Under the pieces are notes generated by a model. It saw only the letters and a program-made list of their open reading frames with translations. It searched no databases and had not been told where the DNA came from. Below, piece by piece: positions 5,846-48,330 of a stretch of DNA of 64,000 nt. The DNA lies in IMG/VR virus record IMGVR_UViG_3300023116_000009, positions 1 to 64,000 of that record; one strand, given 5' to 3'. Made by a program: the position numbers and the translations under genes. The number at the start of each line of letters is the position of its first letter. Position 1 is the first letter of the stretch. The stretch is from a virus.

Positions 5846-5868
5846 GGTCGGTTGTGTGAACTGAAGTC

Positions 5869-5874
5869 AGTATA
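5869..5874 (-). promoter_or_regulatory. early cassette promoter (-10 TATACT)
   Basis: TATACT on the minus strand, preceded by GTGCC and followed by the leader GACTTCAGTTCA; 23 nt from the ATG of the 72-aa gene. No TTGACA-like -35 is visible. Confidence 0.6.
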
Positions 5875-5884
5875 GGCACGGGGT

Positions 5885-5909
5885 GCCCCCCTCAGGGGGG
5901 GCAGTGGAC
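5885..5909 (-). other. GC-rich hairpin plus GTCCAC box between early cassettes
   Basis: After the stop of the 63-aa gene the minus strand reads GTCCAC (5909-5904), then a hairpin with six or more G:C pairs around a 3-nt loop (5902-5885), then the next -10 box. There is no T run, so it is not a classical intrinsic terminator. The same order recurs at 6135-6170, 6991-7027, 7765-7799, 9017-9052 and 9600-9642. Confidence 0.55.
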
Positions 5910-5915
5910 GGTTGC

Positions 5916-6107
5916 TCAGATGGCACTCGCCCCGACGCTTGCCCAGAATGCGAGTCGCAGGGTGCTCGCCTTGGCGACCTGCTCAGCGGAGCGACCCATG
6001 GCACGGGCACCTGCCTTCAGGTCGTTGCGGGTCACGTCTGCCATGGAGGCGGCACGCTTGCCAGTGATGATGTTGCGTGCTGCCTGGAGGGTCTGTTGCT
6101 TGGTCAT
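5916..6107 (-). CDS. small early-region protein, 63 aa
   Basis: An Ala/Arg-rich, mostly helical protein (MTKQQTLQAARNIITGKRAA) that ends in a hydrophobic FWASVGASAI tail. Unrecognised. It has its own TATACT box 22 nt upstream with the conserved leader, and is followed by the GTCCAC-hairpin unit. Confidence 0.65.
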   Translation of the reverse strand: MTKQQTLQAARNIITGKRAASMADVTRNDLKAGARAMGRSAEQVAKASTLRLAFWASVGASAI

Positions 6108-6129
6108 GTCGTTTGGTTGAACTGAAGTC

Positions 6130-6135
6130 AGTATA
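6130..6135 (-). promoter_or_regulatory. early cassette promoter (-10 TATACT)
   Basis: TATACT followed by GACTTCAGTTCAACCAA on the minus strand, 22 nt before the ATG of the 63-aa gene. The upstream side is the GC hairpin rather than a -35 box. Confidence 0.6.
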
Positions 6136-6176
6136 GAGGGGGGAGGGGGCAGGTGCGCCCCCTAGTGGACAGTTGA

Positions 6177-6335
6177 TCAGGCGTCCGCCCAGTTCAGGGC
6201 ATCCTCGATCGCGTCATCCAGATCCTGCAGGAGGGGTTCCAGTTCCTCAGCGTAGAGGTTGTAATCCTCCTCGATCTGATCATAGAACAGATCCTCGATC
6301 TGGAGATCCATCAGGTAGGCGTCAGAGACAGGCAT
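6177..6335 (-). CDS. very acidic small protein, 52 aa
   Basis: The frame reads MPVSDAYLMDLQIEDLFYDQ and continues with repeated acidic residues to NWADA. About a third of residues are Asp or Glu with almost no basic residues, which suggests a DNA-mimic-like or inhibitor-type protein; this is speculative. A TATACT box lies 26 nt upstream and a GTCCAC box directly follows the stop, exactly as in the neighbouring genes. Confidence 0.6.
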   Translation of the reverse strand: MPVSDAYLMDLQIEDLFYDQIEEDYNLYAEELEPLLQDLDDAIEDALNWADA

Positions 6336-6361
6336 GGTTGGTGTCGTTGGTTGACTTGATC

Positions 6362-6367
6362 AGTATA
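6362..6367 (-). promoter_or_regulatory. early cassette promoter (-10 TATACT)
   Basis: TATACT followed by GATCAAGTCAACCAAC, a variant of the shared leader, 26 nt before the ATG of the 52-aa acidic gene. Confidence 0.55.
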
Positions 6368-6400
6368 GGCGGCAGGTGTCTATCCTGCAGTGCCTTGGGG

Positions 6401-6526
6401 TCAGTTAGCGGAGCGGCACACCTGCTGGGTAGCAAGGGCAGCGCCTGCCTTGACGCCTTCGATCATATAGTCACCGATCATCAGGGTAGCAGCGACAGCG
6501 ACAGCGATGGAGAGGAATCGGGTCAT
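6401..6526 (-). CDS. tiny protein with an N-terminal hydrophobic helix, 41 aa
   Basis: Begins MTRFLSIAVAVAATLMIGDY, a positively charged start followed by a hydrophobic stretch, so either a signal-anchor or a small membrane protein; it ends AALATQQVCRSAN. Its own TATACT box and conserved leader lie 26 nt upstream. Unrecognised. Confidence 0.55.
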   Translation of the reverse strand: MTRFLSIAVAVAATLMIGDYMIEGVKAGAALATQQVCRSAN

Positions 6527-6552
6527 GGTTCGTGGTTGGTTGAACTGAAGTC

Positions 6553-6558
6553 AGTATA
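6553..6558 (-). promoter_or_regulatory. early cassette promoter (-10 TATACT)
   Basis: TATACT then GACTTCAGTTCAACCAAC on the minus strand, 26 nt before the ATG of the 41-aa gene. Confidence 0.6.
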
Positions 6559-6571
6559 GAGGCAGGATCGC

Positions 6572-6724
6572 TCAGTGGCGATCGCTGATGTGCCACGTTG
6601 TGGACTGGCACTCGGGGGCAGGGATGCGACCCTCGATGATCGCCTGACGGCGCTTTGCCTCAGCGTTCACCTTAGCAGTATACTCTGCCATGATGGCGGA
6701 CATGTCGAGTTTGGTCTTGGTCAT
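6572..6724 (-). CDS. small early-region protein, 50 aa
   Basis: Reads MTKTKLDMSAIMAEYTAKVN followed by a Lys/Arg-rich helix (AEAKRRQAIIEGRIP) and a Cys- and His-containing tail. Unrecognised. A cassette promoter lies 26 nt upstream. Confidence 0.6.
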   Translation of the reverse strand: MTKTKLDMSAIMAEYTAKVNAEAKRRQAIIEGRIPAPECQSTTWHISDRH

Positions 6725-6750
6725 TGGTCTGTGTCGTTTGAACTGAGATC

Positions 6751-6756
6751 AGTATA
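6751..6756 (-). promoter_or_regulatory. early cassette promoter (-10 TATACT)
   Basis: TATACT followed by GATCTCAGTTCAAACGAC, the shared leader with small changes, 26 nt before the ATG of the 50-aa gene. Confidence 0.6.
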
Positions 6757-6759
6757 GGG

Positions 6760-6963
6760 TCAGAGGATCGCTTCACCAGCGACAGTCGCCCACTTGATAG
6801 GGTGTCCACCGTGGGGGATGCGCCAGATCACTTGATCCTCACCGCTGGTTGCCTCGCTGCGACCCATACGGTAGGCGTGGTTGATGTCGGTCGCCCAGAG
6901 GCATCCCCACTGATCAAACGATCCGAAGGATGCAGGTTGGACAGCGAACGTTGCTGTAGGCAT
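6760..6963 (-). CDS. small early-region protein, 67 aa
   Basis: The start MPTATFAVQPASFGSFDQ is chosen because the -10 box TATAAT and the conserved leader lie just upstream of it; the longer open frame would start inside or upstream of the promoter. Residues include WGCLWATDINHAYRMGRSEA and a C-terminal GGHPIKWATVAGEAIL. No family recognised. Confidence 0.65.
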   Translation of the reverse strand: MPTATFAVQPASFGSFDQWGCLWATDINHAYRMGRSEATSGEDQVIWRIPHGGHPIKWATVAGEAIL

Positions 6964-6985
6964 GATCGTTGGTTGAACTGAAGTC

Positions 6986-6991
6986 ATTATA
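6986..6991 (-). promoter_or_regulatory. early cassette promoter (-10 TATAAT)
   Basis: A perfect TATAAT followed by GACTTCAGTTCAACCAAC, 23 nt before the ATG of the 67-aa gene. The best copy of the family. Confidence 0.65.
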
Positions 6992-7053
6992 GGCACGGGT
7001 CAACCCTATCTGAGGGTGAGAGTGGACACCGTGCCTACTGGCACACTAGTTAG

Positions 7054-8984: not shown

Positions 8985-9011
8985 GGTTGGTTGCCTTTGG
9001 TTGACTCTGTA

Positions 9012-9017
9012 ATTATA
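9012..9017 (-). promoter_or_regulatory. early cassette promoter (-10 TATAAT)
   Basis: TATAAT then TACAGAGTCAACCAA on the minus strand, 27 nt before the ATG of the 63-aa gene. GGGGTGC-loop-GCACCCC and GTCCAC lie on its upstream side. Confidence 0.6.
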
Positions 9018-9057
9018 GAGGGGTGAGGGGTGCTAGGCACCCCGAGGTGGACACTGA

Positions 9058-9576
9058 TCAGACCGTCACAATACGAGCGAGGTCAGCGGTGAGAGGTTGC
9101 TCAGTCACGAAATCATACTCTTGGGTGTTAGTGTCACCCCAACCCAGTTTCCATGCTTGCCAACCATCACCAGGGGTGAACAGATAGCACCACTCTTCTC
9201 CACTATCACCAGAGAGAAACTCATCGAACGTGGTCATCTTAGGAGGAGCATCCTCACCACGCTCAGAATAATAGAGGGGAGCAGGTTCTGCTTTGACTGG
9301 AGAATAGATCCACATGTTATTCTCGTCAGTCATGTACTTAACCTCACGCTCACCTCCACTCATAATGACCTGTTTGAGAGGTGCAGATTCCCACATGTTA
9401 GTGGTATACAGCGAGGACATATCGCCACCGTTGATGAGTTCTTCAACCTTCTCTTTGGTGTTGAAGTGCTTCACCAGGTCACGACCATTGCCCTGGATGT
9501 AACCATCGTAGTGGCAGTAGACAGACACGATCTGGTCAGGACCGAGAGCGAGACCGATGCGAGAGCGAGTTCCCAT
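9058..9576 (-). CDS. conserved phage-type hypothetical protein, 172 aa
   Basis: Opens MGTRSRIGLALGPDQIVSVY followed by CHYDGYIQGNG. This start (MGTRS.IG ... YCH.DGY) is a recognisable widespread phage family of unknown function. The rest is rich in Trp, Glu and Gly, with a Trp-rich C-terminal segment (GDGWQAWKLGWGD). It sits in the early cassette array; its -10 is probably a weaker TATTCT-like box near 9600. Confidence 0.75.
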   Translation of the reverse strand: MGTRSRIGLALGPDQIVSVYCHYDGYIQGNGRDLVKHFNTKEKVEELINGGDMSSLYTTNMWESAPLKQVIMSGGEREVKYMTDENNMWIYSPVKAEPAPLYYSERGEDAPPKMTTFDEFLSGDSGEEWCYLFTPGDGWQAWKLGWGDTNTQEYDFVTEQPLTADLARIVTV

Positions 9577-9645
9577 GGGGTGTTCCCTTGACGACTTCTA
9601 TAGAATACAGGGTGGGGTCACCCTTGGCAACCCCTAGTGGACAGT

Positions 9646-9873
9646 TCAGGCACTGACCACTTCAGACAGACGACGGTCAGCACGTGCTGCCAGAATGAAC
9701 TTACCAACACTCTCTTCATTGTTGATAACGTTCTGCAGATCTTGCACGAACGTTTCATTCATGTTGTAAGTGTAATCCTTACCATTGTTGTAAGTGAGAG
9801 TTGCAGTTCCTGCCTCACTATCAACCACGATGGGGGATTGCAGCATGGAGGACTTGGTGAATTCGATGTTCAT
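9646..9873 (-). CDS. small protein with a KTSC-like pattern, 75 aa
   Basis: Residues ~23-60 (ATLTYNNGKDYTYNMNETF ... SVGKFIL) follow the pattern of the KTSC domain (L.V.F..G..Y.Y.VP...... S.G..F), a small domain found after lysyl-tRNA synthetases and in free-standing phage proteins. The function of such free-standing copies is not known. It lies in the early cassette array with a GTCCAC box after its stop. Confidence 0.6.
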   Translation of the reverse strand: MNIEFTKSSMLQSPIVVDSEAGTATLTYNNGKDYTYNMNETFVQDLQNVINNEESVGKFILAARADRRLSEVVSA

Positions 9874-9945
9874 GAGTTAGTTGTGTGTCAACGACTCAGG
9901 TACAATACATCGGATTGCCCACCCTGTCAACCCCTCTGTGCCACC

Positions 9946-10341
9946 TCAGGGACTGTCACTCAAGAAGTTCTTTTGAACCCATTTCGTGCCATATACTGCA
10001 GTTCGATACTTCATCCAACCAACTTCACCGACATTGGTATGTCCTTTGTCATTGTAGTTGGCACCACGTATCTCACCTTTTTGTGAGTAATTCTCACCAC
10101 GAATTACATTGTAATTATCTGGTTTCTTTTTCCATTGTGGCATTTCTTGCTTCAATTTAGAAAGATTCTCAGAATCTACAATTCCTATGTAATTCTTAGA
10201 ATATTTTAATAATAATCTTTTATACACACGATTCACTAATTCTAGTGAATGATATGGCATTACTACTTCTTGATAGAAACCCTGCTTCTTAGGCACCCAC
10301 ACATATAATTGGTCTCTTTGTATCTTAACAATATAATACAC
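9946..10341 (-). CDS. basic unknown protein, 131 aa
   Basis: Starts at a GTG (VYYIVKIQRDQLYVWVP) directly downstream of an in-frame stop, so no longer start is possible. It is Lys/Tyr-rich, with a C-terminal YNVIRGENYSQKGEIRGANY segment containing a short internal repeat (RGENYSQKG / RGANYNDKG). Composition is clearly AT-richer than the early cassettes beside it, which suggests a separate origin. A degenerate DNA-binding or homing-type protein is possible, but no catalytic motif is visible. Confidence 0.55.
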   Translation of the reverse strand: MYYIVKIQRDQLYVWVPKKQGFYQEVVMPYHSLELVNRVYKRLLLKYSKNYIGIVDSENLSKLKQEMPQWKKKPDNYNVIRGENYSQKGEIRGANYNDKGHTNVGEVGWMKYRTAVYGTKWVQKNFLSDSP

Positions 10342-10474
10342 TAGTGTCTCTAAGCTACTCTATAATATATCTATCAAACCTGACCCAGTTATTCTAGCAG
10401 TTTCTCACAGGTTTGTCAAGTGGTCAGTTTCTGAAGTGTCTGTCAGGATTCTCAGAAATCTCAGAAAATGAAAG

Positions 10475-10662
10475 TTTTCCACAGAAATTGAGAAATCTGT
10501 GGAAAACTATGGAATGTGCCAGTTTTTGTAGTGTCTGTGGAAACTTGACAAACGTGTGCTGACGTGCTAAGACCACAAGTTCTCACAGTATTTCTATACT
10601 TTTCCACAACCTTGTGGAAAACATAAGTATATTTATTTTGACATTAAAACAATTGTGGAAAA
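10475..10662. other. cluster of six cyanobacterial-type DnaA boxes
   Basis: TTTTCCACA occurs at 10475-10483 and 10600-10608 (plus) and at 10498-10506, 10613-10621 and 10654-10662 (minus). A one-mismatch copy (GTTTCCACA) is at 10536-10544 (minus). TTTTCCACA is the DnaA box reported for cyanobacteria. All six lie within 190 nt of a 337-nt non-coding spacer (10342-10678) that also has AT-rich stretches (10621-10655 and about 10355-10375). This suggests an origin or a DnaA-binding/titration site. Confidence 0.6.
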
Positions 10663-10678
10663 ACTCACAATAATTAGA

Positions 10679-10858
10679 TCACGACACTGCTTCTACCCAA
10701 CATTTAGCAGGTCCATCCACTTTATTGTTCCTTTCATACAACCAGTCAAACATATTCTGTAGTTCACTACACCTCTTTTCCGCATCATACTGAGTATTAA
10801 ACCATTCATCCATGTTAGGAACACGTCCTGGTCGTTGAAAGAGAACAACATATTTCAT
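10679..10858 (-). CDS. small protein, 59 aa
   Basis: Start MKYVVLFQRPGRVPNMDEWF is chosen over an upstream ATG because GGAG lies 8 nt before it. It is followed by NTQYDAEKRCSELQNMFDWL and ends CWVEAVS. Last gene of the long minus-strand small-gene operon and next to the DnaA-box spacer. Unrecognised. Confidence 0.65.
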   Translation of the reverse strand: MKYVVLFQRPGRVPNMDEWFNTQYDAEKRCSELQNMFDWLYERNNKVDGPAKCWVEAVS

Positions 10859-10862
10859 TGGA

Positions 10863-11075
10863 TCATCTCCATAATGTTTTCTTGAGTATAGCATAATTGT
10901 TGGAGATTTGGTAGATGTAAGTCACACCAGTGTTACTTGTTGCAACAATCTGATCTCCTTGTACAATAGCAGTTGCGATGTTAGTACCAAATGTTTGAAT
11001 AACACCACTGCGTTGAGAGGATCTTAATTGAATTGATCCATTTGACACAGTGGTATAGAATGCAGCGTTAATCAT
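10863..11075 (-). CDS. small beta-rich protein, 70 aa
   Basis: MINAAFYTTVSNGSIQLRSS followed by alternating hydrophobic and Ser/Thr residues (TAIVQGDQIVATSNTGVTYIY). It looks like a small beta-barrel or SH3-like fold; unrecognised. The ATG overlaps the stop of the gene upstream, so translation is probably coupled. Confidence 0.6.
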   Translation of the reverse strand: MINAAFYTTVSNGSIQLRSSQRSGVIQTFGTNIATAIVQGDQIVATSNTGVTYIYQISNNYAILKKTLWR

Positions 11076-11298
11076 CTCCTAATACTACCTCGTAACAGAA
11101 ACCTTCTAATACAAAGTATTTACACTCTTGATGTAGTTGGTATCTATCTTGGAGATCAAGATCAATCACCGTTTGAATGAATCTTACCTGTTCATTAACA
11201 GATAGATTACCTGACAGGAACATTGGCAGATAGTTGTCCATTTCCTGTAGATAGGTATTTAATTTTGCTTTTTTGTTGAGGGAAGACGAGGACTCCAT
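11068..11298 (-). CDS. small helical phage protein, 76 aa
   Basis: Residues after ~20 (MDNYLPMFLSGNLSVNEQVR) and the following IQTVIDLDLQ and YFVLEGFCYE fit a common short phage protein pattern: a LPxFLxGxLSxxEQxxFIQxxID core, then a Tyr-rich helix and an EGxC end. Function is unknown. The start could be the ATG at 11298 or the one at 11241; the shorter form reduces overlap with the gene at 11207-11389. Confidence 0.6.
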   Translation of the reverse strand: MESSSSLNKKAKLNTYLQEMDNYLPMFLSGNLSVNEQVRFIQTVIDLDLQDRYQLHQECKYFVLEGFCYEVVLGDD

Positions 11299-11389
11299 AA
11301 TGCATGTGTTGGGGCGTAACTGTGATATAATTTTGATCAATGAAAGTAACACGGGCGAGATCATCATCATACACTACAAGATCATTCAC
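11207..11389 (-). CDS. small protein with a GTG start, 60 aa
   Basis: Starts at a GTG overlapping the stop of the upstream gene: VNDLVVYDDDLARVTFIDQN, then YITVTPQHMHYGVLVFP. The beta-rich pattern is coherent, like a KOW/SH3-type barrel. The C-terminal third overlaps the gene at 11068-11298 in another frame, so one of the two may be shorter than written. Unrecognised. Confidence 0.5.
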   Translation of the reverse strand: MNDLVVYDDDLARVTFIDQNYITVTPQHMHYGVLVFPQQKSKIKYLSTGNGQLSANVPVR

Positions 11390-11600
11390 CCTCAGTTGAT
11401 TGAAATTGGTCAGGGTGCTCCATTCGGGCAAGGGTTTCGGTGAGGTTTTTGAAGTACACTGCATCGGTTCCTGAGTAGTCACAGTATTGATACTCGATTC
11501 GCTCTTTGTGGAGCAGGTTTCGGATGAGTGCTGCATTTTCATCAGTAAGTGTAAATGTCATTTCCTTCGGAGGTTTCATTGTACTGTTCTGAGGAGTCAT
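11382..11600 (-). CDS. small protein, 72 aa (or 59 aa from an internal start)
   Basis: The likely core is MTFTLTDENAALIRNLLHKE, beginning at 11561 after AAGGA, then YCDYSGTDAVYFKNLTETLA. The longer frame adds 13 residues that overlap the upstream gene. An amphipathic helix followed by a short beta segment; no family recognised. Confidence 0.6.
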   Translation of the reverse strand: MTPQNSTMKPPKEMTFTLTDENAALIRNLLHKERIEYQYCDYSGTDAVYFKNLTETLARMEHPDQFQSTEGE

Positions 11601-11730
11601 TATTTATCCCCACATCTTTCCATCCATATTTGAATCCTTTGTAATCATCATAGTCGTCCCAGGGAACAGTTACACTCTCCCAGAACTCTCCATCTGCTTC
11701 AAATGTTTCGTTGGTGAGGTCTTCGTACAT
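11542..11730 (-). CDS. acidic aromatic-rich small protein, 62 aa
   Basis: MYEDLTNETFEADGEFWESV followed by WDDYDDYKGFKYGW. Very acidic with many Trp, Tyr and Phe. Unrecognised. Overlaps the next gene's start region and is part of the small-gene operon. Confidence 0.55.
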   Translation of the reverse strand: MYEDLTNETFEADGEFWESVTVPWDDYDDYKGFKYGWKDVGINNDSSEQYNETSEGNDIYTY

Positions 11731-11738
11731 AATCTTGG

Positions 11739-11891
11739 TTACAGGGGGGTTGTAGGGGCATCTGGAGGGGTCTGAGGATGCATCCTGCGATAGTCGTCAT
11801 GTAGACGTTGAATCGCTTTCAGGGTATCAGGAGTTTCATCCCACTCCCATTGGTTTCCGTTCTTGTCAATGAACTGTCTCTTCTGTGTCAT
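11739..11891 (-). CDS. small protein, 50 aa
   Basis: MTQKRQFIDKNGNQWEWDET and a Pro-rich end (HPQTPPDAPTTPL). The ATG overlaps the upstream stop as ATGA and is preceded by a strong Shine-Dalgarno (GGAGGAAAACT then ATG), so it is probably real despite its size. FIDKNGNQWEWDETP may be a short strand-turn-strand motif. Unrecognised. Confidence 0.65.
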   Translation of the reverse strand: MTQKRQFIDKNGNQWEWDETPDTLKAIQRLHDDYRRMHPQTPPDAPTTPL

Positions 11892-12124
11892 AGTTTTCCT
11901 CCTACGGTGGCATCACCGATAACTCGTGAATGTTCATCTAATGTCCCGTCTTGTTCACACTTGAGGTGCCAACGGGTCATTCGTATTGTACTCTCTTCTG
12001 TGAGACCTGTCAACATCTCACGTCCATCTTTCGTTACAGTAGAATATAATCCACTGCGACGTTTGTAGACACGAAATGCATCATCAATCCATTCATACTC
12101 TGCAATTTCAGGATGCTCACTCAT
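11888..12124 (-). CDS. small protein, 78 aa
   Basis: The start is taken at the last of four successive Met codons (MSEHPEIAEYEWIDDAFRVY). The remainder (KRRSGLYSTVTKDGREMLTG) is a mixed alpha/beta pattern. Ends in an ATGA overlap with the next gene. Unrecognised. Confidence 0.6.
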   Translation of the reverse strand: MSEHPEIAEYEWIDDAFRVYKRRSGLYSTVTKDGREMLTGLTEESTIRMTRWHLKCEQDGTLDEHSRVIGDATVGGKL

Positions 12125-15739: not shown

Positions 15740-16308
15740 GCTACACCATCTAGTTTGGATTGCTCATACAAATCTACCATTTCTTCAAGTTGATTGTCAG
15801 TGAATTTGGCAAACTTTTGGAAACGGCGATAGAGTGACCAGTAACGTTGTTCCCATGTAGGATCGTTGCTGGTATCACCATTTGTTACAATAGTGCCGTG
15901 AGGATCAGTAATTTCCCAGGCATCTTCAAGAATTGTACCCATCGGACCTTTATTCAGTTTTGCCCATTCTTCATCTGCTTTTTTGAATTCCTCATACTTA
16001 CTACGGAGATCTTCATCCATAGTCAGTTCATACTCTTTACAGACCTTACGTTGATCTTCCTCAAGCACCATATCATTGAACACCAATGACATAGCACCAC
16101 TGCGAATAGATTGTGGGCACATACCCACACACAGCATGAACTTCTCAAATAATTTGAAGTACTGTCGTGCGTTGAGGTCTTGTGCAGGTGCAGTGATCAC
16201 ATAATGCTCTTCAGGGAGCATATCATCAGCAATAGTAGATCCAAACCCACTGTAAGTAGGTGTCCAGGTAGAGTCAAACTTTAGTTCAACAGTTGCTTCA
16301 TAAGTCAT
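15736..16308 (-). CDS. unknown protein, 190 aa
   Basis: MTYEATVELKFDSTWTPTYS, then a helical, charged centre (YEEFKKADEEWAKLNKGPMG) and a Trp/Arg-rich segment (TWEQRYWSLYRRFQKFAKF). One of the larger genes of the operon. Overlaps both neighbours by 4 nt. No family recognised. Confidence 0.65.
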   Translation of the reverse strand: MTYEATVELKFDSTWTPTYSGFGSTIADDMLPEEHYVITAPAQDLNARQYFKLFEKFMLCVGMCPQSIRSGAMSLVFNDMVLEEDQRKVCKEYELTMDEDLRSKYEEFKKADEEWAKLNKGPMGTILEDAWEITDPHGTIVTNGDTSNDPTWEQRYWSLYRRFQKFAKFTDNQLEEMVDLYEQSKLDGVA

Positions 16309-16775
16309 GAATAGAGTCCTGTAATTGTGTCAACGTCAGCAGGTCGAAATGCTCTCACTGGTGCAATCCAGTTGTAAGACATCACTGTGTCGTTGGTGTC
16401 TGTATCATACCATATATCACCGTCTCTGTCATCATGTGGGTGTTCAAGTCCTAACGCATGACCCCACTCATGCAAATACACATACTTCTTATCATCAGAA
16501 CGTTTTTTGACTAGGATAGTATATCCTTTCTCTGTTGGTATGCACAGACCAGAAGCATAACCATATGGTTCTGGCATAGCATTTTGCTCATAGAATGCAA
16601 CCTCAGCATGTTTTGGTTTCTTCAACACCTTGATGTCAAATGATACTATCTCATCTGTGGTTGCAATCATGTTACGAGTGAACCTCGTTGGACTATCAAC
16701 ATACACCTTGAGGATATTATCATCCAAGAATTGAGAGGTGTGTTCATAGTTACGAGGATAGATTAGTTCTTCCAT
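16305..16775 (-). CDS. metzincin-type zinc metalloprotease
   Basis: This 156-aa protein contains the complete zinc-binding signature HEWGHALGLEH (residues 102-112) followed by P-H-D, and a downstream Met-turn motif VMSYN (131-135). HExxHxxGxxH plus a Met-turn defines metzincins; the matrixin/serralysin groups have this exact spacing. No secretion signal is visible, so it probably acts inside the infected cell or is packaged. The start overlaps the upstream stop as TGATG and the end overlaps the next gene by 4 nt. Substrate unknown; host regulatory proteins or phage assembly proteins are possible targets. Confidence 0.8.
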   Translation of the reverse strand: MEELIYPRNYEHTSQFLDDNILKVYVDSPTRFTRNMIATTDEIVSFDIKVLKKPKHAEVAFYEQNAMPEPYGYASGLCIPTEKGYTILVKKRSDDKKYVYLHEWGHALGLEHPHDDRDGDIWYDTDTNDTVMSYNWIAPVRAFRPADVDTITGLYS

Positions 16776-16960
16776 CAGCACTCATCATGCGGGAGATAAT
16801 CTGGTGCTTCTACCTCTTCTTTCTTCACGTAACGGATATTGTAAGGAGAATTGAAGAAACGACGGAAAGCGACCACAGTAATAAGCAGCGCCGAAGAGAC
16901 GCCAACAAGACCAAGGAAGGTAACAGCATCGCCAGTGAAAGAGTAAGTGTCAGGAGTCAT
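16775..16960 (-). CDS. single-pass membrane protein, 61 aa
   Basis: MTPDTYSFTGDAVTFLGLVG continues into a hydrophobic helix (VSSALLITVVAFRRFF, to ~residue 36) and ends with an acidic tail (KKEEVEAPDYLPHDEC). It lies immediately upstream of the metalloprotease with overlapping stop/start. It could be a membrane partner of the protease, but only context supports that. Confidence 0.65.
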   Translation of the reverse strand: MTPDTYSFTGDAVTFLGLVGVSSALLITVVAFRRFFNSPYNIRYVKKEEVEAPDYLPHDEC

Positions 16961-17043
16961 CGGTAAATTGCTTTAAAGAACAGAATGATACCAGCAACAG
17001 TCATGATGCCAGTAAGGAGGAGAGAAGTGTTAGTTACGTCCAT
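16957..17043 (-). CDS. tiny membrane protein, 28 aa
   Basis: MDVTNTSLLLTGIMTVAGII followed by LFFKAIYR. A single transmembrane helix. Its stop overlaps the next ATG as ATGA and it lies right after the upstream gene, which favours a true gene over chance. Confidence 0.5.
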   Translation of the reverse strand: MDVTNTSLLLTGIMTVAGIILFFKAIYR

Positions 17044-17045
17044 GA

Positions 17046-17456
17046 TCAGCGAATGTAGAGGTAACCACCAGACCAATCAGCGTTGCCAAGCAACCAGTTC
17101 AGGTCTTCGTCCTGCAGCAGAGAGTAACGAGCAATCTTTGCAGGTGCCTTGATGCTAGCAGGTTTGAACACGTCACCCGTCTCACGATCAATGAAGGCGT
17201 GGACGCTGGAGGAACCACCGCTGTCCTTCATCATGACCTTGAGGTAACGGCGACCACGCTTGATGTAGAACTCAATAGGAGCACCATTCTCGATGATCTC
17301 AGCGATCTTGGACTGGTGGTAGTCCATGTTGATCTCATTGTCGATGCTACGCTGGTGAGCACGGATCTGGTAGTCCTTGAAGTTCATGTACAGGGCATCG
17401 CAGAGCATCACGGTGTAGTCCTCGATCTTCTCTGCTGCCAGGGTGGTGTTGATCAT
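17046..17456 (-). CDS. conserved phage-type hypothetical protein, 136 aa
   Basis: Start MINTTLAAEKIEDYTVMLCD is preferred because AAGGGGA lies upstream; the longer frame begins in the likely promoter (TACAAT near 17480). The C-terminal half (SSVHAFIDRETGDVFKPASI, then KAPAKIARYSLL and WSGGYLYIR) is recognisable as a widespread phage family of unknown function (VHAF.D..TG.VFKPAS..APAK). Confidence 0.75.
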   Translation of the reverse strand: MINTTLAAEKIEDYTVMLCDALYMNFKDYQIRAHQRSIDNEINMDYHQSKIAEIIENGAPIEFYIKRGRRYLKVMMKDSGGSSSVHAFIDRETGDVFKPASIKAPAKIARYSLLQDEDLNWLLGNADWSGGYLYIR

Positions 17457-17537
17457 TGGGTGTGTCCCCTTGAGTACCTTCATATTGTAGGGCACACCTC
17501 GTCCTTGGCGACCTGCTGTGTGGCGGTCTGTAGAGTG

Positions 17538-17756
17538 TCACTGTGACATCTCTTCGACTGTCTGCATGATCTCCTGTCTGGTAGGTGCAGCAGGTTTAGG
17601 ATTATCAGATTGAATTTGCTTGACAACCTCAATGCCACCTTTGATACGAGCACGAAAATCTTTGAGTTTATCCAGTTCTTCTTGCTTCTCAGAGATATCC
17701 GAGTTAACTGCTCTCAATTGATTTTCAAGGTTTTCTAGATACTGTTGGAATTCCAT
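17538..17756 (-). CDS. small coiled-coil protein, 72 aa
   Basis: MEFQQYLENLENQLRAVNSD, then heptad-like Leu/Glu/Lys residues (ISEKQEELDKLKDFRARIKG), so a coiled coil over residues ~1-45. It ends APTRQEIMQTVEEMSQ. First gene of the minus-strand block, divergent from the 1478-aa fibre gene. Unrecognised. Confidence 0.65.
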   Translation of the reverse strand: MEFQQYLENLENQLRAVNSDISEKQEELDKLKDFRARIKGGIEVVKQIQSDNPKPAAPTRQEIMQTVEEMSQ

Positions 17757-17763
17757 ATAAATA
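17756..17763 (+). promoter_or_regulatory. T4-type late promoter TATAAATA
   Basis: An exact T4 late consensus on the plus strand, 57 nt before the ATG of the 1478-aa structural gene. A second near-match CATAAATA lies at 17787-17794. This fits late expression of a gene that runs opposite to the other fibre genes. Confidence 0.75.
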
Positions 17764-17819
17764 ACGGATTGACTAAACTACTATACCATAAATAAAGAGA
17801 AAAGGCAACCCTAATACTC

Positions 17820-20800
17820 ATGGCAGTAAAACTATTTAATAGGATTGGATTAAGACGTGACTTAGACCTTGGCGACTTACTGAATCCTGAAGTAGCATTA
17901 AATAATGTATTGGGTACAATGGTGGACGAGGGAACGTTCACTGTTGAAGATATCGAACCAATCAAAAATATTTACGTTACTGATATTACATCATCAACAT
18001 TCTTAACTCTTGTAGGAATCACTGTAGAGTTCACTCCTATCGTTATTGATGAAGAAACTGGTTTACCTGCTGTGGGTAATGCAGATAACCCTGTAGCATA
18101 CAGACCCTTTGTTAAGATTAAGAATAGATTAGATACAGCATACTTTACAACAGGTGAACCATTCTTCTATGGTGGTGATGGTCCTGTCGCAACATATTAT
18201 GATGCAAATAAGATTATTAGATTGCCAGATTCACTGGTACTTGGTAAGGTATATCAAATTGGTGATGTCGTATTATCAAATAATAATATTTACAGAGTAG
18301 TTTTACCTAACTCTAGCACATCCGTTCAACTGTCTCACATTAGTGGTTCTCAGGATGGTTTCTTATATCAAAGAGCATATGATGCTAAAGAGGTGTATTT
18401 TAATGGGCAGTATGACCCAATTACTGGTGAGGACAGGACAGAAAGCGATAACTTCTGGGAACGTGGATTCTTCTTATATGGAGATAAGATCAGGGATTCC
18501 TATCTATCATCATATGGTGGTGTGAAATGGAATGGATACTTTAAACCAACTGTATCTGGTTCACACAGATTCTTTATTAGATCTACTGGCAATGTTCAGT
18601 TCAAGTTCCAAGATCCATCAGTATTATCATCCTCACCCGCAAAGTATGGTCAACCAAATCCATCGTATGTTGCAGGAATAAGTGGTGGAACTACTAATCA
18701 ACAGACCTGGAGAGCAACACTATATTCCAATTTGACTGATACTACAAGAAAATTTGTAGAACTTTGGTTTGAGACAGCGTTAACTCTTGCAACTGATGAC
18801 TTAGTATATGTTGAATCACTACAAGGTCAATTAGTAAGTAAGCAATATAGAATTTCCACATTAAATCCATCTGGTGAACTTTCTTCAGTAGATAGAATAT
18901 GGATCGAAGTAACTGAAGATTTCAACCGTAAGAATGTCGAACTAAATCAACTCCCAACAGTTAATACAACTGGTAATTGGGATGCTAGTACTGGCAACAA
19001 GTCAAGTATTAGATACTATCCATATGAAAGAAGAGCATTAAAGACATATCTAAATTCAATTTATAAAAATTTAGAGTTACCCTCGTCTGCATATACTATT
19101 TCCAACAACACAATTACATTTACTGGAGCAACTGCAGATTATTATTATATGCAGTTCATGATTAATGATTACATTTATGATTATAGACAAAGAGGCACAG
19201 AAACTCACGGTGCTAGAAGATTTATTGTTACCAGTTTAAACGATAATACAAAAACAGTAACAGTTGCAATTGATGCTGGATATACTGGAGTTAATACTTC
19301 ATCAAATAATGATCAACTAGCAAGGTGGGATCCACCAAATTTATTTGTTTGGGACGCCACATTTGGTGAACTTGTTGATCAGACATATAATACTGGTGCA
19401 ATAAACGATATCATTTCTGGTACAACACGCACAAACAATTTGCACTTTGTTGCTAGATTTGGTAAAAATGGAGATGATGGCATTAGAACCAAATATATTA
19501 CCATTAATCAGTTCATTCCACAGTATGAAGAACATGCTTTTGAGTTGTCATTCTTTATGAAGGATGAGGATATCCCATTTGATTTAGATGTAGAAAACAA
19601 AGGAATTATTTTCTATTATGCTGATGAAAATAGTGGATATGACCCTATCAATTATAAACACTTATATGATCCAGATTATGAATTCTATCAAATTGGCGAC
19701 TTTAAAACATTCTTAGACAACACTATTCCTCTTGGTGGTACTAGTAGAGAACAAGGTATCAGTCAAAGAACTTTTGGTGGTGAACAGTTACTTACTGCTG
19801 GTGATCAATACTCTACTTTCTACACAACGTTACCACTTCAATCAATTTATGAACCTCCAGTAAGATGGAATGACGTTGCTACATTTGAAGGCACTGGAGT
19901 TACTGCTGGTGTGAGAAGAGTTAGTATTAGTGATGTTGTAAACATTGAAGTTGGTAACTTTGTAGTCCAGAATAATGCTGCTGACTTCTATGAAGAAAAT
20001 CCAATCTTACCAGCAGGAACAAGAGTAGTAGAAGTTCTGAATAGTGCAAATGCTATTAGTGGAGATGCTATCATCAGTAGAGTTCCCAGTTCTACTAATA
20101 GTAGCACTGCATTATGGTTCTTTAATCATCGTGGATTTGTAACCACAGCATATGTTTTTGCAAAGGGAGATGAAGGCACTCTTGCTCTTGGTGCTAACAG
20201 AATATACTGTCATCCAGATTTCCCAGTCAATACTGTTGTATACCCATTAAATAGTGGTTCTGATACTTCATTTGCTTTCTATGATACAAAATCAAGGACT
20301 ACATTATTCAATACTGTAATCACAGCAAGTACAGCAGTTGGTACTAGTAATAACTTTACATCTAATGGTGTTACAGTTACATATACAAAAACAAGTGCTA
20401 CTACCTTAGAAGTTACTGGTGAAGGATTTGGTTATGTATTGAGATATAAAGCAGGGGATTTTAGTGAAGTTAAGAAAGGAATGGTATTTGTATCTAATAG
20501 AGATTCATCTACTCAAACATTCTATAGAAGAATTGAAGGAATTGAAGATTTTAATAATGACAATGCTGGATATATTTACTTCAACAATCCATATACAAAT
20601 TTAACTAGTGGCAACATGTTTGCTGCAGTATATTATGATAAAGGAATTGATATTGTAAAACCATTAGAGTCATATTGTAATGGCATTACATGTTCACAAA
20701 ACAACTATCAGAATGAAACTGTCACCAATGAGGATGGGGAACAGGAAGTTGTAACTTATCCAAAGACAGATTATATTTTACCAACAGTTTATGAATCTCT

Positions 20801-22256
20801 TCAAGCGTGGGAATCTGGTCCTGAATTTAGTGTCACCAATACATATACAGAGAGTGGCGTTGGTTCTGTATGGTTTGGCACTAATTGGAAGTGGTGGTTT
20901 GATAGAGCAGCAGATTCAAGTGCAAATCGTGATTATGTAGCAACTCCTGGCAATGTAGCAGATTATGCAAATGCAGGAAGAACTTTCAAAGATGATATTG
21001 TACACGTTCAATTAACTCAAGATCTTATCAATCCAGCAAATACTGATGCATTAGTTAGTGGTTTAGAATCTGCTGGATATCCTGGAACATCAGCATTAAC
21101 TGGTCCTAATGATTTTATTCCTATTGGAAGAGTCATTGGTTATCTTAGATTGGGTCCTGTTAATGGTGTATATGACTACAAATTTGTCGTCAAACTATTC
21201 AAAAATTCTGTAACGTGGGCAGACACATATACTAATGATATTGGTACTGTAATTAACAAAAAGATTGATTGGACAAAATTTAGTTCTTCACAATTCAGCA
21301 TTAGAAAGTGGGCAAACCATGACGCTAATAGAGGTACAACTCTTGTTAGGGTATCTGATGTAACATCATCTTTAAACTTGGAAGCAAAATTATTAGCATG
21401 GACCACATCCACCAGCACTACTTCAACATATTATCAGTACACTGGAAACACTACAGCATATAGTGCTAGTTTTGGTTTAGATGCATATTTCCACAATATA
21501 GAAAGTATTCCAACACTAGAGAATACACTAGATTCTAGAGTAATTACCAATGGGTGCTGGTTGCGTGAAGAAATTATTGATGGTGTTAGAAAAACAATTT
21601 ACTTTGAGTCATTTGATCAAACACAGGGACCTTACTCAGTATATGGTAAGCATTATACTGGTACTAATCCAAGTACTGGAATGGCAGTCACTTTTACTTT
21701 AACTGGTGGAACTGAGATTAATAATGCGGTTAACTTAAAAGAAGAGAGTATCAGTGATATTAAAGTTGGCACTAGTTTACCTCAAGATCAGTACAGATAC
21801 TTACAGTTTAGAAATGAAGTATATCAATTAGTTCCAACAACTCCTACAGTTGAAGGAATCATACCATATGTAAGAGTTATTGATAGATTTACCACTCAAC
21901 CTAACACTACTGGGTATCTTCAAAACTCCACCAACCAACTCTCGGTATATACTCTTGCAAATACTACTACAAATAGAGAACTGTGCTGCCCTCCATTAGA
22001 CACATCACCACCATTTGATAGTTCACCAATTGGTCTTGCGACTACAATTAATGAACCAGATATGGCAGTTGCTGGTGGGTTGAATGTTAGAATTCTGTCA
22101 GCAAAACATCCTGTTGCTAACATTCTTGAATTGCCAAGTGGAGTTACTACATCACAACTAGATGTAGACAAGAAACTTAGAATTGAATTCAGTGGTCAGC
22201 AATATGATCTCCTGATTGGAGATGACGTACCTCAAGCAGTTAAAGACGCCAATTAA
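17820..22256 (+). CDS. giant virion structural protein with a PA14-like domain, 1478 aa
   Basis: A large beta-rich, Thr/Asn/Tyr-rich protein typical of tail fibres or baseplate adhesins. Residues ~185-330 look like a PA14 domain, a carbohydrate-binding beta barrel: a FWERGF segment, then YGGVKWNGYFKPTVSGSHRF (~230-250), with the W-G-Y and SG.H.F signature of that fold. The N-terminus (MAVKLFNRIGLRRDLDLGDL) is soluble and may attach to the baseplate. It is transcribed from a late promoter and converges with the next gene, the two stop codons sharing TTAA. A host-surface glycan-binding role is inferred. Confidence 0.75.
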   Translation: MAVKLFNRIGLRRDLDLGDLLNPEVALNNVLGTMVDEGTFTVEDIEPIKNIYVTDITSSTFLTLVGITVEFTPIVIDEETGLPAVGNADNPVAYRPFVKIKNRLDTAYFTTGEPFFYGGDGPVATYYDANKIIRLPDSLVLGKVYQIGDVVLSNNNIYRVVLPNSSTSVQLSHISGSQDGFLYQRAYDAKEVYFNGQYDPITGEDRTESDNFWERGFFLYGDKIRDSYLSSYGGVKWNGYFKPTVSGSHRFFIRSTGNVQFKFQDPSVLSSSPAKYGQPNPSYVAGISGGTTNQQTWRATLYSNLTDTTRKFVELWFETALTLATDDLVYVESLQGQLVSKQYRISTLNPSGELSSVDRIWIEVTEDFNRKNVELNQLPTVNTTGNWDASTGNKSSIRYYPYERRALKTYLNSIYKNLELPSSAYTISNNTITFTGATADYYYMQFMINDYIYDYRQRGTETHGARRFIVTSLNDNTKTVTVAIDAGYTGVNTSSNNDQLARWDPPNLFVWDATFGELVDQTYNTGAINDIISGTTRTNNLHFVARFGKNGDDGIRTKYITINQFIPQYEEHAFELSFFMKDEDIPFDLDVENKGIIFYYADENSGYDPINYKHLYDPDYEFYQIGDFKTFLDNTIPLGGTSREQGISQRTFGGEQLLTAGDQYSTFYTTLPLQSIYEPPVRWNDVATFEGTGVTAGVRRVSISDVVNIEVGNFVVQNNAADFYEENPILPAGTRVVEVLNSANAISGDAIISRVPSSTNSSTALWFFNHRGFVTTAYVFAKGDEGTLALGANRIYCHPDFPVNTVVYPLNSGSDTSFAFYDTKSRTTLFNTVITASTAVGTSNNFTSNGVTVTYTKTSATTLEVTGEGFGYVLRYKAGDFSEVKKGMVFVSNRDSSTQTFYRRIEGIEDFNNDNAGYIYFNNPYTNLTSGNMFAAVYYDKGIDIVKPLESYCNGITCSQNNYQNETVTNEDGEQEVVTYPKTDYILPTVYESLQAWESGPEFSVTNTYTESGVGSVWFGTNWKWWFDRAADSSANRDYVATPGNVADYANAGRTFKDDIVHVQLTQDLINPANTDALVSGLESAGYPGTSALTGPNDFIPIGRVIGYLRLGPVNGVYDYKFVVKLFKNSVTWADTYTNDIGTVINKKIDWTKFSSSQFSIRKWANHDANRGTTLVRVSDVTSSLNLEAKLLAWTTSTSTTSTYYQYTGNTTAYSASFGLDAYFHNIESIPTLENTLDSRVITNGCWLREEIIDGVRKTIYFESFDQTQGPYSVYGKHYTGTNPSTGMAVTFTLTGGTEINNAVNLKEESISDIKVGTSLPQDQYRYLQFRNEVYQLVPTTPTVEGIIPYVRVIDRFTTQPNTTGYLQNSTNQLSVYTLANTTTNRELCCPPLDTSPPFDSSPIGLATTINEPDMAVAGGLNVRILSAKHPVANILELPSGVTTSQLDVDKKLRIEFSGQQYDLLIGDDVPQAVKDAN

Positions 22257-24829
22257 ACCTTCTTCATAATGAGGAAAAAGTCCTCATTATTGATTGAAAT
22301 CTTTAACTTATATGCTGTTGGGTTAGTTCCTGAGACAGAGAAATTGTCTGCCAGGGACTCACCCAATGCACCGTCACCATTAACAAATTTACTATTGTCT
22401 GTTGTAAGTCCATCTCGACGCAGATCAATATCAATGCTAGTTGTAAATACTAAGTCATTGATATTAACTCTAAATGATGTGGTTTTAATTTCCCCATCAC
22501 CAATTGACCAAGGGTTATAATCACTTGAGAAAGAACGTGTCTTGTTAGCAAAGTCAGACCTTAAATCATTAGTAATTTGAGATCCAGCATCACTAATGAA
22601 AATGCCAGGAGATGCATCTTCTGCAAGTTGATTATCATTACTGTTAAACCCATCTGGATCATATGCAGTAAGAAGTCCATCAACAAAAATATCTCTCGCA
22701 TAATATAATTTACGATCTACTCTATACTTTTGGTCTTTAAGATATGAAGTTTGATCGACATTATCAATAACGTTATTAAGTTCTACAGAATATCCATCAT
22801 CAACATTATAACTGAACTGACCATCTCTACCATATTCATCAGAAATCTCTGCAGTTTCAAAAATTTCAGGTGCTTCTAAGTTTAAAACATTTTCAATGGT
22901 GAGAGTATCATCTCTTTTAAAAATTACGTCTGGAAATAGTGTTGTAGTTGGTACTGACACTCCAGAGTAAGTTGTACTTTCACTAGATGGTATTGTATAT
23001 TCCTCAGCGACTAAGATGATTTCTTTGTCTGCTTGGATATTAGATCTTGGACTAGTTTTTAAGAAATAACTATCTCTACCATTAGCATCAAAGACACCAT
23101 ATTCTACACCACTATCATTTGAAGCGACGACAGGGGAAGAATTGACAACAAATAATTGAAAGGTGTTACCAAATGTAGATCCAGCACTAAATCCGTTTCC
23201 AGATGCAACTACCACAACATAATATACTGTTTGGTTGTTAACAATAGATGTATATTTGTCAGCAATTCTATAATCAATACCACTCTGAGTATATTTGCTA
23301 CCAATTGAAATACCGATCCATGAAGTTTGAGATGTAGTGCATAACATCTTTCTACCAAATTTATTAAAGGTATCAAAGATGTTTAATTTAGATCCTCCTG
23401 AGTTATTATAAATGGTGAAGAATGGTTTAACATAACCTTCGGTGTCTAAAGTATAATTTGGATACTCTCTTACTCTAACACTAGTTGCAATAACATGTCC
23501 CAATCCAGAGGCATTAACTTCTGATGCAGATAATGATGTTGTTGCTGTAACTGGCACATACAAGTATCCAGGTGCGGCAGCAGTTGCATAATTAGGTGTC
23601 GGTGCATTTTGAATATAAGTTCTCATTAAACCAATGTCAGTAGCACTTGGTTCATCTCCAACATTGTCAATATTAATAATACTTTCAGGAAGACCTTCCA
23701 TGTATGCAACTAATGACACTGGATTTGTCCTAGTTGCTCCAGTTTCCAATCCATTTACAGTAATATAATTAGTAACCCAGTTTTTGACATCATCAAGGAA
23801 ATCTGCAAGAACAGTTTGATCAAAGTTCTGACTATTTGTGAAAAATGCTGCAAGCAGATCAATATCAAATGTACTCAATCTACCATCACCATCTACATCA
23901 TATAAAGACAGATTTGAGGTCAATTGTTCCTGTGCATATATCTTTCTATTAATATCATATGCCTTATCAGAAGAATTATTAGGAAGTACAAAGGTATTTA
24001 AAGATGATGTTAGATTTTTAAATATAGTATATTCACCATCAAGTTTAGAACTAGTGTTTGTAATTTCTACGGTAAGATCCTTATTGCTCAACGTGCTAGG
24101 ATCCCATGCATAGTTACCAACTAATATAACTCTCCAGGGGAATCCAATCAAAGTTACAGTGAATCCCTCTCCATTAATTCCTACAAACTCTCCTGGAATG
24201 TCACCATTAATGTAAGTTGAACTTCCTTGAACTCTATACTTTGATACAGATAATACATTTCCTTGAGAAAATCCAATGATAGCATCACCACTCTGCTGTA
24301 CAGTTCCACTGTTAGTGATTTCTACTGATTGAATTTGCCCTCTAAACCCAGTTGACCCAGCACCACCATCAGATACAACCACTGTTGCTGCAGCAGATTC
24401 AAATGTTCCACCACCACCTTTAAATAATACTTCATATGTACCTGGATTATAATTCTGACCTCTATCAAATGTAATATCCCTTCCTGCTAAGGGATTTGTC
24501 AGGACTCCATCATCTTCAAAACCAAAATAATCGTAATCATAATCTTCAATTAAATTAATTGGTTGAATCTCTATAATATCATTGTCTGTGTAATTATACA
24601 CAGTGTCTTTAAAGGTAAACTTTGTTCCAAGTTCAAGTGATTTACCAGATTCCTCGGTTGATGCTAAATCTCTAAACCTGTTAAAAAACAGTTGAGATTT
24701 CTCCGATGCCAATCCTTGAAATACTAATAAATCCGCTGCAGCAGTACCACCTGCCAAGTTATTGATGATTTCTTTACCATCAGTAACTTCTTGAAGATTT
24801 AACTCTTGTACAAAACCTTGATTTGCCAT
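22253..24829 (-). CDS. virion structural protein with a dockerin-type EF-hand, 858 aa
   Basis: A large Asp/Asn/Ser-rich beta protein of fibre type. Residues ~309-321 form a canonical calcium-binding loop, YDVDGDGRLSTFDIDLLAAF, with Asp at positions 1, 3, 5 and 12, as in dockerin or EF-hand repeats. Gly-rich segments elsewhere (LFKGGGGTF, VVVSDGGAGS) are typical of phage fibre linkers. It lies 5 nt downstream of the LRR protein gene. The role is probably host recognition or fibre assembly; calcium dependence is an inference. Confidence 0.7.
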   Translation of the reverse strand: MANQGFVQELNLQEVTDGKEIINNLAGGTAAADLLVFQGLASEKSQLFFNRFRDLASTEESGKSLELGTKFTFKDTVYNYTDNDIIEIQPINLIEDYDYDYFGFEDDGVLTNPLAGRDITFDRGQNYNPGTYEVLFKGGGGTFESAAATVVVSDGGAGSTGFRGQIQSVEITNSGTVQQSGDAIIGFSQGNVLSVSKYRVQGSSTYINGDIPGEFVGINGEGFTVTLIGFPWRVILVGNYAWDPSTLSNKDLTVEITNTSSKLDGEYTIFKNLTSSLNTFVLPNNSSDKAYDINRKIYAQEQLTSNLSLYDVDGDGRLSTFDIDLLAAFFTNSQNFDQTVLADFLDDVKNWVTNYITVNGLETGATRTNPVSLVAYMEGLPESIINIDNVGDEPSATDIGLMRTYIQNAPTPNYATAAAPGYLYVPVTATTSLSASEVNASGLGHVIATSVRVREYPNYTLDTEGYVKPFFTIYNNSGGSKLNIFDTFNKFGRKMLCTTSQTSWIGISIGSKYTQSGIDYRIADKYTSIVNNQTVYYVVVVASGNGFSAGSTFGNTFQLFVVNSSPVVASNDSGVEYGVFDANGRDSYFLKTSPRSNIQADKEIILVAEEYTIPSSESTTYSGVSVPTTTLFPDVIFKRDDTLTIENVLNLEAPEIFETAEISDEYGRDGQFSYNVDDGYSVELNNVIDNVDQTSYLKDQKYRVDRKLYYARDIFVDGLLTAYDPDGFNSNDNQLAEDASPGIFISDAGSQITNDLRSDFANKTRSFSSDYNPWSIGDGEIKTTSFRVNINDLVFTTSIDIDLRRDGLTTDNSKFVNGDGALGESLADNFSVSGTNPTAYKLKISINNEDFFLIMKKV

Positions 24830-47324: not shown

Positions 47325-47340
47325 GGTAATAAATTATAAA

Positions 47341-47412
47341 CTCCTCCGCCTGGATTCGAACCAGGGACCAATCGATTAACAGTCGATAGCTCTACCGCTG
47401 AGCTACAGAGGA
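47341..47412 (-). tRNA. tRNA-Asn (anticodon GTT)
   Basis: A complete cloverleaf can be drawn: acceptor TCCTCTG with CGGAGGA, D arm AGCTCAGCGGTAGAGC, anticodon stem ATCGA with loop CTGTTAA (anticodon GTT), T arm CTGGTTCGAATCCAG, and discriminator G as usual for Asn. The 3' CCA is not encoded. Confidence 0.9.
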
Positions 47413-47623
47413 ATGTGGGTGGTGAGATTCTATCATACTCACAACTAGGAGGTCGCACTGATAGTAACGTTTCCCAGCACTTTCGGATTCCTTGGTATTG
47501 GATTCTGCAACTCTGGTCTCCCAGTATTACAGCGGGCACCACCCCTATCCTAGTATACATTATCCCGTGCATGACCGCATAGGATTATTCTGTCACACCC
47601 TTTGAGAGACCGTCGCCTCTCAA
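47413..47623 (-). other. structured spacer between two tRNAs, no gene recognised
   Basis: About 210 nt with several hairpins: TTGAGAG-loop-CTCTCAA beside tRNA-Ala, CTGG-GAGA-CCAG with a GNRA-type loop, and GTGAG-loop-CTCAC near tRNA-Asn. An open frame across it runs into the tRNA and is not convincing. It may be a processed precursor segment or an unrecognised small RNA. Confidence 0.4.
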
Positions 47624-47696
47624 TGGAGAATAGCGGACTCGAACCGCTGACATCCTGCTTGCAAAGCAGGCGCTCTACCAACTGAGCTAATTCCCC
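47624..47696 (-). tRNA. tRNA-Ala (anticodon TGC)
   Basis: Acceptor GGGGAAT with ATTCTCC (one G:U), D arm AGCTCAGTTGGTAGAGC, anticodon stem CCTGC with loop TTTGCAA (anticodon TGC), T arm GCGGTTCGAGTCCGC, discriminator A. No encoded CCA. Confidence 0.9.
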
Positions 47697-47801
47697 TGGC
47701 GACCCTTTTGTTGACGAGGTAGAGCCGAACCCCGTGGAGAAAATGAGATGTGGACTCCCATATTCTTTTTCACTATGAAGAATGAAACATCATAGCGCCA
47801 G

Positions 47802-47875
47802 AGCCACAAGTCGGACTTGAACCGACGACCTACGGTTTACAAAACCGTTGCTCTATCCAGCTGAGCTATAGTGGC
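47802..47875 (-). tRNA. tRNA-Thr (anticodon TGT)
   Basis: Acceptor GCCACTA with TTGTGGC, which has one U-U mismatch at the sixth pair. D arm AGCTCAGCTGGATAGAGC, anticodon stem ACGGT with loop TTTGTAA (anticodon TGT), T arm GTCGGTTCAAGTCCGAC. The 5' end overlaps the last 10 nt of the 65-aa coding region upstream. Confidence 0.88.
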
Positions 47876-48063
47876 GATTGTTTTTCTTCTTTGGCGAGTT
47901 TGAAGTAGAGTTTGTAATACCTCTTCTTCATCTCATCAATGGCATCCATGTCTTCTTGGAAACCCATGTACTTGAAGAGTTGATAAGACCCTTCAAGTTC
48001 ACTGAGCAATCTTAGCACGTTAATCGAAGTTCTGTCAAGTCCTCCGAAGGTGTATTTACTCAT
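47866..48063 (-). CDS. small helical protein between tRNAs, 65 aa
   Basis: MSKYTFGGLDRTSINVLRLL, then ELEGSYQLFKYMGFQEDMDA and a Lys/Tyr-rich helix (YYKLYFKLAKEEKQSPL). Predicted all-helical. Its last codons overlap the 5' end of tRNA-Thr, so the message and the tRNA compete for the same transcript. Overlaps the upstream gene by 4 nt. Unrecognised. Confidence 0.6.
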   Translation of the reverse strand: MSKYTFGGLDRTSINVLRLLSELEGSYQLFKYMGFQEDMDAIDEMKKRYYKLYFKLAKEEKQSPL

Positions 48064-48320
48064 GGGGGTAAAACAGAAACTTCATCAAGTTCAACTGGGA
48101 AGAGGAGTGGGTGCATCTCCTCTACCATAAGGTATTCACTGTTTTTAGTCAACTGTTCAATGTCCAAAGGTGGTTCAGAATCAGCAAGTGCCGTAACATA
48201 AGGATCACCCCTTTCTTCATCAGTAATGTCGTCGTAAACGAACGGCATTCCATTCATGAAATAGACAAGGGCAATCCCTATTGTATTAATGTAACGGTAA
48301 TCGCATCTGACTTGGTACAT
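48060..48320 (-). CDS. small protein between tRNAs, 86 aa
   Basis: MYQVRCDYRYINTIGIALVY, then FVYDDITDEERGDPYVTALA and a Pro/Leu-rich acidic end. Mixed composition; no family recognised. Lies just downstream of tRNA-Leu in the same transcript. Confidence 0.6.
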   Translation of the reverse strand: MYQVRCDYRYINTIGIALVYFMNGMPFVYDDITDEERGDPYVTALADSEPPLDIEQLTKNSEYLMVEEMHPLLFPVELDEVSVLPP

Positions 48321-48330
48321 TTCTCTTAGG

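Follow-up and report, generated by a model that had tools for sequence, protein, structure and literature searches.

A recurrent intergenic element of T4-like cyanophages carries DnaA boxes, an AT tract and a promoter-like core, and may be a replication origin

What is a dense cluster of cyanobacterial DnaA boxes doing between two small genes of a T4-like phage? The cluster lies in the virus record IMGVR_UViG_3300023116_000009, whose positions 1 to 64,000 are referred to here as the window. The record encodes a T4-type DNA polymerase (gp43), a replicative helicase, ribonucleotide reductase and baseplate proteins, and its major capsid protein shares about 65% identity with its counterparts in marine Synechococcus phages. 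Its two ends share sequence, and the record is therefore probably near-complete and circularly permuted. Because the baseplate gene gp6 lies at its right end, the locus would be located about 10 kb upstream of gp6 on the circular map; in phage Syn19 the corresponding element precedes gp25 and gp6 by about 1.5 kb, in a region of small genes. Elsewhere in the window, a GC-rich island at 5851-7000 (GC content 0.56-0.63, versus 0.39) contains short minus-strand reading frames, and the sequence CTTCAGTTCAACC, exact at 6115, 6538 and 6971 and near-exact at 5854, is apparently a common leader.

The initial annotation had reported five exact copies and one single-mismatch copy of TTTTCCACA, in both orientations, within a 337-nt non-coding spacer, and all six were recovered where it had placed them. 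The features of the locus, in window coordinates, are as follows.

9946-10341, minus strand: downstream gene, an open reading frame of 131 aa with no assigned function
10342-10678, no strand: non-coding spacer holding the whole element, delimited by the ends of the flanking reading frames
10391-10419, minus strand: promoter TTGACA-N17-TAGAAT, aimed at gene 9946-10341, from a promoter scan and conserved in relatives
10475-10483, plus strand: DnaA box TTTTCCACA, exact, paired with the box at 10498 (start-to-start distance 23), invariant in four syntenic relatives
10498-10506, minus strand: DnaA box TTTTCCACA, exact, invariant in four syntenic relatives
10536-10544, minus strand: DnaA box with one mismatch, GTTTCCACA, invariant in the window phage and contigs L513, L519 and L517
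10545-10573, plus strand: conserved core TTGACA, 17 nt, (CGTGC)TAAGAC, promoter-like by sequence, aimed at the AT tract and at the boxes of 10600-10662
10600-10608, plus strand: DnaA box TTTTCCACA, exact
10613-10621, minus strand: DnaA box TTTTCCACA, exact
10622-10639, minus strand: AT tract AAAATAAATATACTTATG, by sequence a candidate unwinding element
10654-10662, minus strand: DnaA box TTTTCCACA, exact, the outermost box of the window, with no aligned box in L513 or L517
10679-10894, minus strand: upstream gene, an open reading frame of 71 aa with no assigned function

The five exact copies in the window all belong to this cluster, while shuffled sequences lead one to expect 1.4 per window. 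In the rest of the 186,087-bp genome the exact 9-mer occurs only at 73220 and 165809, both times isolated, so that a scan for comparable density elsewhere in the genome came back empty, and nowhere in the genome does another 9-mer occur five times within 200 nt. The chance expectation, put far below one in the initial annotation, computes to 0.004 copies in 188 nt (Poisson P of about 1e-14). More than two copies in 190 nt did not arise in any of 200 simulated genomes. An AT-rich stretch in the spacer region ranks at the 99.9th percentile of 60-nt windows. The locus thus shows both a cluster of host-type boxes beyond chance and an adjoining AT-rich region, as would be expected of an oriC-like site. 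A scan of 9000-12000 against Rfam returned no family at the gathering score and no intrinsic terminator in the spacer scored above threshold; an RNA family or a terminator was accordingly set aside as the identity of the spacer.

The 9-mer TTTTCCACA is a documented cyanobacterial DnaA box (PMC4674748). Tandem pairs of it occur in 233 of 291 cyanobacterial genomes, and the reversed control yields almost none, which together with the published motif supports the identity first proposed for the boxes. The C-terminal, box-binding domain of DnaA is absent from the window phage and from Syn9, Syn19, S-PM2, S-RIM50, P-HM1 and P-SSM4, while control bacteria do score. Any DnaA bound at these sites in the seven phages would therefore be that of the host.

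A translated search of GenBank phages with the neighbour gene (tblastn) found no match, and syntenic relatives of the window phage were found through its neighbouring genes among viral contigs instead. The clearest relatives (L513/L518, L519 and L517) carry four or five exact boxes in the same spacer, most of which has otherwise diverged; the cluster expected at this locus in close relatives is thus present. Across four syntenic sequences, 36 of 45 box columns are invariant (80%), versus 164 of 292 in the rest of the spacer (56%; p=0.003). The box pair spaced by 23 nt is intact in all four aligned sequences, and the DNA between its members has changed. More distant contigs, reached through gene 9058-9576, are often boxless in the stretch covered, with synteny to the spacer not established. 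A chance cluster or functionless local repeat, for which one might cite the box pairs, each a short repeat of the others, is hardly credible, given a probability of about 1e-14 and a conservation across divergent relatives that refutes it. Seven contigs (L025, L031, L066, L071, L088, L095 and L127) contain five to seven exact copies of TTTTCCACA in about 300 nt and lack the cyanophage core; several of these share box spacing, and they may be other phages or host fragments bearing arrays of DnaA boxes.

A sensitive DNA search with the window spacer gave weak, partial matches in many cyanophages, and these led to a conserved element. The matched places are intergenic or nearly so, and in them two or three convergent copies of TTTTCCACA precede a further conserved block, TCTTAGCACG-N13-GTCAA. 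The combined pattern of box and block finds 92 viral stretches, 74 of them distinct after trimming. A 230-nt query from phage S-RIM50 retrieves 263 records, 257 of which are cyanophages, nearly always at a single place in each, and a query from S-PM2 retrieves 60 records from a partly different subgroup. The element therefore occurs about once per genome in more than 250 GenBank records of T4-like cyanophages, where it had previously gone unlabelled. Its modules are the DnaA boxes, an AT tract, a promoter-like core aimed at the tract and the boxes, and an opposed promoter into the next gene. Clustered boxes in complete genomes sit at the element or within a few kb of it; in Syn9, the element lies at about 52.6 kb and has two exact boxes. 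The maximum AT content near the element reaches the 97.3-100th percentile in five genomes. In three relatives, L021 (7545-8598), L024 (2058-3105) and L072, the element has its box pairs, and the neighbouring intergenic gap, about 1 kb distant, contains an additional double pair of boxes. An unrelated irregularity was seen in the S-PM2 record NC_006820.1 at 16195-22269 (L138), which lists many tRNAs overlapping coding genes; ARAGORN finds none there, and the tRNA coordinates of the record therefore look misplaced.

Read on the opposite strand, the block TCTTAGCACG-N13-GTCAA is TTGACA-N17-TAAGA, preceded by an extended CGTGC, and it points at the boxes. The sequence resembles a sigma-70 promoter, and a promoter is the role that we would assign to it. 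Its -10 hexamer matches TATAAT at three of six positions, which is weak for an E. coli promoter, and when the window spacer was put through a standard promoter scan, only the gene-ward promoter was reported and the core was not called. A search with the core alone, using a pattern without boxes, found 49 distinct loci with full flanks, and in 44 of these the 250 nt upstream contain two or three exact boxes (expected, 0.08); among the others, L251 has three boxes on the other side and four loci have none. In a set of 137 loci, which includes duplicates and loci fetched through their boxes so that percentages are descriptive, an AT tract (AAATAAATMTA) between core and boxes starts at an almost constant 53-55 nt from the core in 93 (68%; background 2.5%), and an opposed sigma-70 promoter of the TTGACA-N17-TATAAT type leads into the next gene in 72 (53%; background 1.7%). 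The window has a box pair between core and tract, which puts the two somewhat farther apart than in relatives. By sequence, the locus has what a T4 origin has, namely a promoter no more than about 100 nt upstream of an AT-rich element and aimed at it, albeit here with a weak -10.

Core-type sequences also occur in other settings. A second one, TTGACA-N18-GTGCTAAGAT, lies in the window at 48009-48038 (minus strand), where four tRNA genes are clustered (47340-48415). Within about 22 kb, the 112-kb contig IMGVR_UViG_3300020057_000035 (L228, L240; GC 0.47, no DnaA boxes) repeats TGTAATCTTAGCACG-N12-TGTCAA about 20 times, and these copies look like a repeated promoter or a repeat family in an unrelated virus. 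That the core motif appears in both places without boxes suggests that it marks a type of promoter and is not by itself the mark of an origin. One might then see in the element a divergent early-promoter region, where the boxes are bound by DnaA in the role of a transcription factor, or by some other protein, and the promoters are thereby tuned, while replication starts elsewhere. Two opposed promoter-like sequences do flank or adjoin the boxes, promoters persist in boxless phages, and the recurrence of the motif at 48009-48038 and in the box-free contig would follow naturally. However, the transcript predicted from the core leaves the downstream gene behind and enters an AT tract that is non-coding and lies at a fixed distance, and a plain promoter needs no such tract. 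We consider this explanation unlikely, though it deserves serious weight.

The commonest arrangement of boxes is a convergent pair, with a start-to-start distance of 23 and complementary arms of 10 nt, which raises the possibility that these palindromic pairs serve some protein other than DnaA as a binding site, or function as a hairpin in DNA or RNA. Yet the spacing of pairs varies among elements (13, 23 or 31), and many elements, among them those of S-RIM32, S-PM2, S-CAM1 and ACG-2014d, have same-strand boxes 11-12 nt apart, from which no hairpin can form. The window spacer has no terminator-like site, and the 9-mer is exactly the DnaA box of the host. We give this explanation little credence.

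The boxes are not found in every relative that has the element, as they would be if it were an oriC-like site in the strict sense. Among 29 named T4-like cyanophages, a box cluster is present in 13 and absent from 16, the latter mostly Prochlorococcus isolates. By isolation host, the cluster occurs in 11 of 16 Synechococcus phages versus 2 of 13 Prochlorococcus phages (Fisher p=0.008, with kinship ignored and with the Synechococcus group taking in ACG-2014d, assigned by isolate name as its host field is blank, and S-SKS1, which lies outside Kyanoviridae). S-SSM4 was scored as boxed on one exact and two one-mismatch boxes. A core-like sequence without boxes was found in P-HM1, P-HM2, MED4-213, P-SSM4, P-RSM1, P-RSM4, S-CAM4 and S-WAM2, and in the environmental genome metaG-MbCM1; the other boxless named phages were scored for box clusters only. 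The AT tract and core are thus the constant part of the element, and the DnaA sites are optional. Since boxes are missing in many relatives, DnaA is no general requirement of the phage family, and is probably an accessory in some lineages rather than an obligatory initiator. The initial annotation had offered the locus as a possible host-DnaA-dependent phage origin. That idea gains from the AT tract and the opposed promoters, which had gone unseen, and loses as regards dependence, because many relatives keep the conserved element without its boxes.

We also considered whether boxless Prochlorococcus phages simply reflect hosts without DnaA boxes, and dropped this explanation because Prochlorococcus-like DNA upstream of dnaN keeps them: two to six boxes within one mismatch occur there, as they do in Synechococcus-like genomes. 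Small cyanobacterial genomes have no exact tandem pairs of TTTTCCACA, and the dnaN-upstream boxes of the picocyanobacterial family are sparser and more degenerate.

In E. coli, the datA locus, a cluster of DnaA boxes outside oriC, titrates DnaA. The phage element is likewise a box cluster outside oriC, and its boxes might titrate host DnaA and so keep the host from starting further rounds of replication while it is being taken over. As phage copies multiply, two to six boxes per genome would become many sites, and facultative boxes are what one would expect of a takeover trait. In contrast to datA, however, the boxes of the phage element are few (two or three in most relatives) and sit with an AT tract and promoters, which tie them to one position, whereas titration would work from anywhere in the genome. 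Titration as the explanation of the element seems to us quite improbable. The cyanobacterial oriC, which adjoins dnaN, offers a closer likeness in that the same TTTTCCACA 9-mer is clustered beside AT-rich DNA; the phage element differs in lying among small phage genes with neither dnaN nor dnaA, in having a conserved promoter-like core, and in frequently lacking the boxes.

The T4 origins oriF and oriG each consist of a promoter with an AT-rich unwinding element downstream, where the transcript forms an R-loop that primes DNA synthesis, and oriE depends on a promoter of the early type (PMC3016281). The cyanophage element resembles oriF and oriG in placing an A+T-rich candidate unwinding element downstream of a promoter-like sequence, in phages that, like T4, have a gp43 polymerase, a gp41-type helicase and other T4-type replication genes. 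It differs from the T4 origins in that its core is sigma-70-like and not MotA-dependent, and in that host DnaA boxes flank its AT tract; the T4 origin review (PMC3016281) mentions no DnaA. We therefore favor, at a probability of roughly 0.5, the reading that the element is a transcription-primed origin of the T4 type to which host DnaA sites have been added.

The course of events that we propose under this origin reading extrapolates from the arrangement of motifs to DnaA binding, R-loop formation and origin activity. Host RNA polymerase would start at the TTGACA-N17-TAAGAC core, and its transcript would run into the AT tract, at a distance of about 50 nt, where the strands would open as an R-loop. 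In boxed lineages, host DnaA on the flanking boxes may help or time the opening of the strands, after which gp41 (helicase), gp61 (primase) and gp43 (polymerase) of the phage would load. More tentatively, and less probably than not, this could be one conserved hybrid origin, a T4-type transcription-primed start that certain lineages have placed under host DnaA control and others have released from it.

Nucleotide skew does not mark an origin cleanly. In four of the five genomes analysed, raw GC-skew extremes lie 3-8 kb from the element, but their sign, given a G-rich leading strand, is that of a terminus and not of an origin, and the extremes of strand-normalized skew in the five genomes are scattered, not falling consistently at the element. 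PMC2984593, citing Weigele et al. 2007, briefly mentions a single theta origin that had been predicted for Syn9; Syn9 does carry the element, at the site noted above.

Where replication starts in T4-like cyanophages is unsettled in the open-access literature, in which the T4 replication enzymes are described as kept and only the predicted theta origin of Syn9 is mentioned. We found no description of DnaA boxes in cyanophages in that literature, much subscription literature falling outside our search. The element provides a specific, single-copy candidate origin of about 300 bp in most T4-like cyanophages, and its boxed and boxless lineages offer a ready-made comparison. If the proposed mechanism is correct, a lytic T4-like phage uses the initiator of its host, which would be unexpected for the group, and infection could be coupled to the host cell cycle; the hybrid origin, if real, would tie phage replication to the replication state of the host.
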